DNA from: a virus
Length of the DNA: 25,594 nucleotides
Strand: one strand, 5' to 3'
Virus record (IMG/VR): IMGVR_UViG_3300046002_002135
Coordinates: 1 to 25,594 of that record
The position numbers were made by a program, and so were the translations under genes. The notes below the pieces were generated by a model. That model had not been told where the DNA came from. It searched no databases and saw only the letters and a program-made list of their open reading frames with translations. Within the stretch, counting starts at the first letter, position 1. Each line of letters opens with the position of its first letter. Below are positions 17,912 to 19,294 of the stretch, piece by piece.

Positions 17912-18009
17912 ACCTCCTTGGGTGCGCTTCTACGAGAGGCGTTGGAGGTTCTGTTAGTTGGCGCAAGGTTCACGGTACTGCCCCGTGTTCTCTAGTTTTG
18001 GAGACTAAC
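17912..18009. other. Strongly structured non-coding element next to hicA
   Basis: No gene between 17835 and 18037. ACCTCC (17912-17917) pairs with GGAGGT (17944-17949) around a perfect 7-bp stem (17925-17931 with 17935-17941, three-base loop). A second domain is closed by GTTAGT (17953-17958) and ACTAAC (18004-18009) around CACGG/CCGTG. The stems suggest an RNA; the strand is uncertain. There is no T tract and no tRNA T arm. It lies between the hicA stop and the next promoter. Confidence 0.45.
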
Positions 18010-18037
18010 ACATCACTTTAATGCTTAACCCGCAAGT

Positions 18038-18262
18038 TTAGATATATCCTGCATGTTGGTGTGCTTGTCTAGCAACACCTATGCTAATATCTCTATGGTA
18101 TGGGAGAACGATAACGTTCTTATTCGTATGATGTTTATATTTTTCGTGATTGGTTCCGCCATGAGAAACCCAACCATCTGCCTTCAAACGTTTTACTAGA
18201 GCCGCTTTATTCGTCTCAATAGCATTTTTCTTTTCAGCAACGAAACCTTTAAACGATAACAT
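18038..18262 (-). CDS. hicA: HicA-like mRNA interferase with a capsid-targeting-like N-terminus
   Basis: 74 residues from the ATG at 18262. A longer frame to 18313 runs into tRNA-Asn and is rejected. Residues 20-74 match the HicA fold: LVKRLKADGWVSHGGTNHEK, catalytic His39 in GTNH, VIVLPYHRDISIG, and a final helix AHQHAGY. HicA enzymes cleave mRNA and arrest translation. The first ten residues MLSFKGFVAE resemble the T4 capsid-targeting sequence (MKTYQEFIAE), which is cut after the Glu by the prohead protease. No HicB antitoxin is encoded nearby. I infer a toxin packaged in the head and delivered with DNA; an ordinary intracellular RNase is the alternative. Confidence 0.8.
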   Translation of the reverse strand: MLSFKGFVAEKKNAIETNKAALVKRLKADGWVSHGGTNHEKYKHHTNKNVIVLPYHRDISIGVARQAHQHAGYI

Positions 18263-18302
18263 AAAACTGGCCCTTTTATTTTTATTTATGTTATTTGGAT
18301 AT

Positions 18303-18377
18303 TGGCTGGACAAGTAGGACTCGAACCTACAACAACCGCATTAACAGTGCGGGACTCTACCATTGAGCTATTGTCCA
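18303..18377 (-). tRNA. tRNA-Asn(GTT)
   Basis: Acceptor TGGACAA/TTGTCCA, anticodon stem CCGCA/TGCGG with loop CTGTTAA, T arm GTAGG-TTCGAGT-CCTAC, discriminator G, and encoded CCA. Canonical cloverleaf; first of three adjacent tRNAs. Confidence 0.95.
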
Positions 18378-19079: not shown

Positions 19080-19294
19080 GCAAAAAATATACGGTAAAGC
19101 GTATAAGGTAAAAAGTGATGGATGAAAAACTATGTCGGGCTAGCCGAGGTCTTTCCAGTCCTGCTGCTCCACCAACAGCGCCCTCTCTCACGCGAACCTA
19201 AAGGGTCCAATCTTTAAGCCGAGAGGCGTAGGCTATCTGTAATCACGTCTTGGACAAAGATCGCTTAAGATTGCAGGATAGGTTCTACGGCACA
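19080..19294. other. Gene-free structured stretch
   Basis: No gene seen. GGCTAGCC at 19138-19145 is a perfect palindrome. CAATCTTTAAGC (19208-19219) pairs with GCTTAAGATTG (19263-19273) with one bulge, and TAGCC (19141) can pair with GGCTA (19231). No tRNA T arm and no terminator T tract found. It lies between a small gene and a promoter, so it may be a processed RNA or a leader. Confidence 0.3.

Follow-up and report, generated by a model that had tools for sequence, protein, structure and literature searches.

A HicA-like gene with a capsid-targeting-like N-terminus in a T4-like phage of aquatic bacteria: a candidate packaged and injected toxin

Capsid-targeting tags have been described in T-even coliphages, in which the characterised tagged cargo, the internal proteins IP1-3, consists of restriction inhibitors. 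The internal proteins of T4 carry a ten-residue capsid-targeting sequence (CTS), and suppressor genetics assigned residues 4 and 7 of this sequence to targeting and residues 8 and 10 to processing and cleavage (PMC9026906). In T-even phages, a leader of this kind marks the proteins that are injected (PMC12373910). The HicA toxin of phages has been described together with its partner HicB (PMC10865869). In the literature searched, no capsid-tagged HicA without a HicB was found.

The stretch of DNA that we analysed (the window, 25,594 nucleotides) is a 25.6-kb fragment of an IMG/VR record without head genes. It belongs to a T4-like phage, with genes for DNA polymerase, UvsX and primase-helicase and 15 tRNAs, and its source is a virus of aquatic bacteria. 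The nearest named matches of the DNA polymerase were cyanophages, and the nearest named match of UvsX was Stenotrophomonas phage DLP6 (61% identity). The original prediction of an open reading frame at 18038-18262 held as a real gene of 74 amino acids, with a correction of the strand, which is minus: the hicA-like gene starts with ATG at 18262 and stops at 18038-18040, scores above the PF07927 cut-off and is under purifying selection. A probable ribosome-binding site, AAAAGGG, was read from the sequence at 18271-18277 (minus). The gene is located among tRNAs, with tRNA-Asn immediately upstream (18303-18377, minus) and a tRNA-Trp-like cloverleaf immediately downstream (17959-18033, minus; anticodon CCA, unusual T-loop); in T4, too, ipI is found close to the tRNA cluster. 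The cloverleaf at 17959-18033 was not called by ARAGORN or Rfam. It is conserved behind hicA in two further contigs (L002, 6241-6316; L003, 665-740), with the T-loop GGCAGTA or GGCGGTA and one compensatory pair change. Another structured-looking stretch lies between tRNA genes at 19100-19290 of the window, where neither an evident gene nor an Rfam match was found.

The gene product is a HicA-fold protein. The Pfam profile HicA_toxin (PF07927) matched residues 22-72 with E=1.2e-7 and 32.1 bits (cut-off 27), and PHROG 353, 'toxin', was concordant with this assignment; the NCBIfam search of the product gave no match. In the PDB sequence search, Y. pestis HicA3 and B. pseudomallei HicA were matched from residue 17-20 onward. 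The AlphaFold model (pLDDT 79) has a low-confidence helix at residues 4-12, followed by an alpha-beta-beta-beta-alpha fold (dsRBD-like), and its best seven matches in the PDB were HicA (7/7). From Pfam, the PDB sequence search and the model, the HicA domain was placed at residues 20-72 (18047-18205, minus), in agreement with the previously proposed start at about residue 20. The candidate catalytic histidine, His39 (codon 18146-18148, minus), had been described as intact and is in place within the context GGTNHEKY, invariant across all homologues aligned. The loop preceding it is one residue longer than that of B. pseudomallei HicA; in the alignment with the latter, His39 adjoins the position of catalytic His24 and falls in register only when a one-residue gap is shifted before His39. 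Synonymous change among the hicA homologues was saturated or far above non-synonymous change (dN 0.011 and dS 0.39 for L002 vs L003), and the protein is therefore under constraint. RNase activity is predicted for the window HicA.

The N-terminus of the product reads MLSFKGFVAEKKNAIETNKAALVKRLKADGWVSHGGTNHEKY..., and codons 1-10 (18233-18262, minus) encode the capsid-targeting-like tag MLSFKGFVAE, with a predicted protease cut after Glu10. The same pattern matches the tag of T4 IPII and IPIII, MKTYQEFIAE. At the key positions of the CTS, the window HicA has F4, F7, V8 and E10. Aromatic residues at the targeting positions were found as F4 and F7 in the window and in four phage homologues, and the processing positions hold V, L or I at 8 and E at 10 across the homologues, which start with MLSFKEFLAEKR (L002), MLTFKEFLAEKR (L003) and MLSFKEFIVEKR (both L139 and L140). 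All four hicA homologues on T4-like contigs have thus retained the tag, at identities as low as 65%. The window tag, with G6 and V8, is the least typical compared with the four homologues, and Val at position 8 is rare, occurring in 3 of 253 tagged open reading frames among the matches listed. Among the phage HicA homologues, the linker that follows the tag is variable in both length and sequence, and bacterial plasmid and prophage HicAs beside HicB start at about residue 17 of the window HicA, without the tag; we therefore regard the tag as an N-terminal module added to HicA. One scan for a tagged hicA in sequenced bacterial species found none.

To the proposal of a match to the T4 capsid-targeting pattern, these alignments add conservation in four homologues beside a varying linker, and related phages add an excess over chance, together with many other genes carrying the same ten-residue pattern. 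Across nine related records, with the HicA contigs left out, the pattern was present at 31 of 852 predicted gene starts vs 8 of 3919 internal Met (odds ratio 18, p=6e-17), the internal control giving a chance rate of about 0.2% per Met. When each position was left out of the pattern in turn, residue 10 was Glu in 26 of 34 cases (background 8%), residue 4 was Phe in 24 of 27, and residue 7 was Phe or Tyr in 26 of 31. A chance match of the tag was ruled out by the internal-Met control and the conservation. The tagged bodies in the relatives included cytidylyltransferases, DUF6267 proteins and HAD or polynucleotide-kinase-like proteins. On about 150 kb of T4, the pattern recovered ipII, ipIII and gp61.1 with a few internal or out-of-frame matches. 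T4 gene 61.1 (L131, 18966-19130, minus) starts with MKTFKEFIKE, a near-perfect CTS, which makes its product a predicted internal head protein.

Two pattern scans of IMG/VR returned 253 tagged open reading frames in 98 clusters among the matches listed, and their bodies were unrelated. Because these loci were chosen by the tag, they show the breadth of cargo, not enrichment, and the count of 98 clusters is an upper estimate on account of false positives such as a tagged HTH protein (L295), which resembles a bacterial antitoxin and was probably not cargo. Tagged and untagged pattern loci listed were not separated by T4-core hits (79/191 vs 20/47). The named tagged bodies included S-AdoMet lyase, the anti-CBASS protein Acb1, ART-PolyVal ADP-ribosyltransferase, zeta toxin, GNAT, NT5C and cytidylyltransferase. 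One viral contig (L185, 5915-9422) harbors an apparent cargo operon of seven tagged genes, most of them adjacent to one another, whose bodies differ and one of which is ADP-ribosyltransferase-like. Another (L326, 6884-7330) encodes Acb1 with the tag MISFKQFLHE, which suggests virion delivery of Acb1 in some phages. A second toxin-family cargo is a zeta-toxin-family kinase with the tag MKTFKQFIEE (L241, 12946-13677, minus). We consider it likely that aquatic T4-like phages load a large and exchangeable set of injected effectors by means of one short, generally used N-terminal tag. This set would include the anti-CBASS nuclease, SAM lyases, ADP-ribosyltransferases, kinases, nucleotidyltransferases and, from the toxin families, HicA and zeta. 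If so, virion-delivered effectors would be predictable from metagenomes by the tag alone.

A promoter box of the T4 late type, CATAAATA, lies at 18283-18290 (minus), 20 nt before the hicA ATG. The form [TC]ATAAATA occupies the same place before hicA in L002, L003, L139 and L140, that is, in five of five contigs including the window; the same T4 late promoter form also precedes gp18, gp19 and gp22 in relatives. In these relatives, the box was more common before tagged genes (6/31) than before other genes (43/821; p=0.006). The count of YATAAATA in the window by itself was not above chance (4 found, 3 expected), so only the position and the conservation of the box count as evidence. Since the window has no head genes, the presence of the gp21 protease was checkable on relatives only, as was the absence of HicB phage-wide. 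In relatives (G001, G002, G003 and G012), the head clusters encode a gp21-type protease, as well as a gp23 whose mature start is preceded by a site of the L-x-E type, the cut sites being inferred from T4.

Virion proteomes of other phages were compared with the tag. For the cyanophage S-CREM2, whose virion proteome was published with coordinates (PMC10665884 Table 3), tagged proteins were in the virion in 4 of 5 cases vs 48 of 214 for the others (annotated proteins, published mass spectrometry; p=0.012). The four are a SAM hydrolase (MKDFDSFLEE), an APH/ChoK-like kinase (VKRFDAFLTE), a cytidylyltransferase (MKNFSSFLTE) and gp13 (MKDLHSFLTE). A virion kinase of S-CRM01, cited as such in PMC10665884, starts with MISFDQFLSEKK, and the virion cytidylyltransferase of S-SZBM1 starts with MRFRQFIIEA. 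What the reports for S-CREM2, S-CRM01 and S-SZBM1 give is the presence of these proteins in virions. The NMNAT reported in virions of S-CBWM1, a non-T4 cyanophage, has no tag, which means that presence in virions does not require one. The authors of the S-CREM2 study could not exclude co-purification (PMC10665884); for the tagged proteins, the shared address tag argues against it. Separately, S-CREM2 gp12 (L127, 7704-10313, minus), a Cas9-annotated nuclease detected in the virion, has a tag-like LRFASFMAEA at about residue 17, not at the start.

We assign a probability of roughly 0.7 to the reading that the window protein joins a CTS to a HicA mRNA interferase and belongs to the internal head proteins, being packaged, trimmed and injected. 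Packaging, cleavage after Glu10 and injection are what the tag would predict for this HicA, the putative role of the tag being based on T4 genetics and on the correlation in other phages. HicA would be expressed late in infection and docked onto the prohead core by Phe4 and Phe7 of the tag, and a gp21-type protease would cleave after Glu10 to leave a free 64-residue HicA within the capsid. The freed HicA would then enter the next host together with the ejected DNA and cleave mRNA there in the first few minutes, alongside other host-takeover and counter-defence enzymes of a mixed cargo. The cutting of host mRNA at once is plausible and is the least certain of these steps.

The closest rival keeps packaging and injection and changes the target. 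The injected HicA would be a counter-defence factor and not a general mRNA cutter, for example by titrating host HicB or by interfering with a host toxin-antitoxin or RNA-based defence. In its favour, T4 IP1-3 all act against restriction (PMC12373910), and anti-CBASS Acb1 and SAM lyase are among the other tagged proteins. Against it, purifying selection has preserved the His39 loop along with the entire core, which is more in keeping with an active enzyme, and we regard this alternative as unlikely. More doubtful still is a late HicA that stays unpackaged and degrades RNA in the producing cell, its N-terminus being an amphipathic extension with another role. Such a protein would suit a gene with a late-type box in the tRNA cluster of a T4-like phage; against it, the extension fits the tag pattern, is kept across 65% identity and is missing from bacterial HicAs, and tagged proteins of other T4-like phages were found in virions.

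The orphan status of the gene bears on the least probable explanation, in which an ordinary phage HicAB toxin resembles the tag by coincidence and has its HicB encoded at another place of the genome. Phages with HicAB pairs have been described (PMC10865869), and the window is only a fragment. However, the HicB profiles PF15919 and PF05534 had no match in the window or in the four other T4-like hicA contigs (searched as G000, G024, G025, G029 and G030), in line with the claim that no HicB-like gene lies nearby, and the control prophage record, G031, returned its HicB with PF15919. The adjacent HicB antitoxin gene expected of a type II HicAB system was not found on the five contigs, all of them fragments, and the absence of HicB holds for these contigs. 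A chance tag rate of about 0.2% per Met and the conservation of the tag in distinct lineages also stand against a coincidence, which we judge very improbable.

If HicA is packaged as proposed, the upkeep of an orphan toxin would be explained by late synthesis, storage in the head and release only in the next host. The natural fusion of the tag to HicA would be, to our knowledge, the first toxin of a toxin-antitoxin system to act as an injected phage effector. The tag would also account for the kinases, cytidylyltransferases and SAM hydrolases that recur in cyanophage virion proteomes and that the authors were unable to tell apart from contaminants (PMC10665884), and would provide a simple sequence rule for finding further packaged effectors.

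Compared with known systems, the HicAs of HicAB pairs (B. pseudomallei, 6g26 and 4c26; Y. pestis HicA3, 4p78) share the fold, the sequence core and probably the catalytic-type His with the window HicA, which differs from them by an extra 16-residue N-terminus, the missing HicB neighbour, the late-type promoter box and the placement in a T4-like tRNA cluster. T4 IPI, IPII and IPIII resemble HicA in their small body, in a ten-residue tag at the N-terminus that agrees at the key positions and, in the case of ipI, in a location in the tRNA region; for HicA, the cut after Glu is predicted. The T4 internal proteins are restriction inhibitors without known enzyme activity, whereas the body in the window is a predicted RNase of a toxin family. 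T4 Alt, a packaged and protease-trimmed ADP-ribosyltransferase delivered for the takeover of host gene expression (PMC9026906), resembles the role proposed for HicA; however, the two have no sequence relation, and Alt starts with MELITELFDED, without this form of the tag. Finally, CTS fusions of staphylococcal nuclease, EcoRI and GFP in T4 heads demonstrated tag-driven packaging and the delivery of a nuclease (PMC9026906, PMC3012670). Those fusions are man-made, whereas the tagged HicA would be a natural case.
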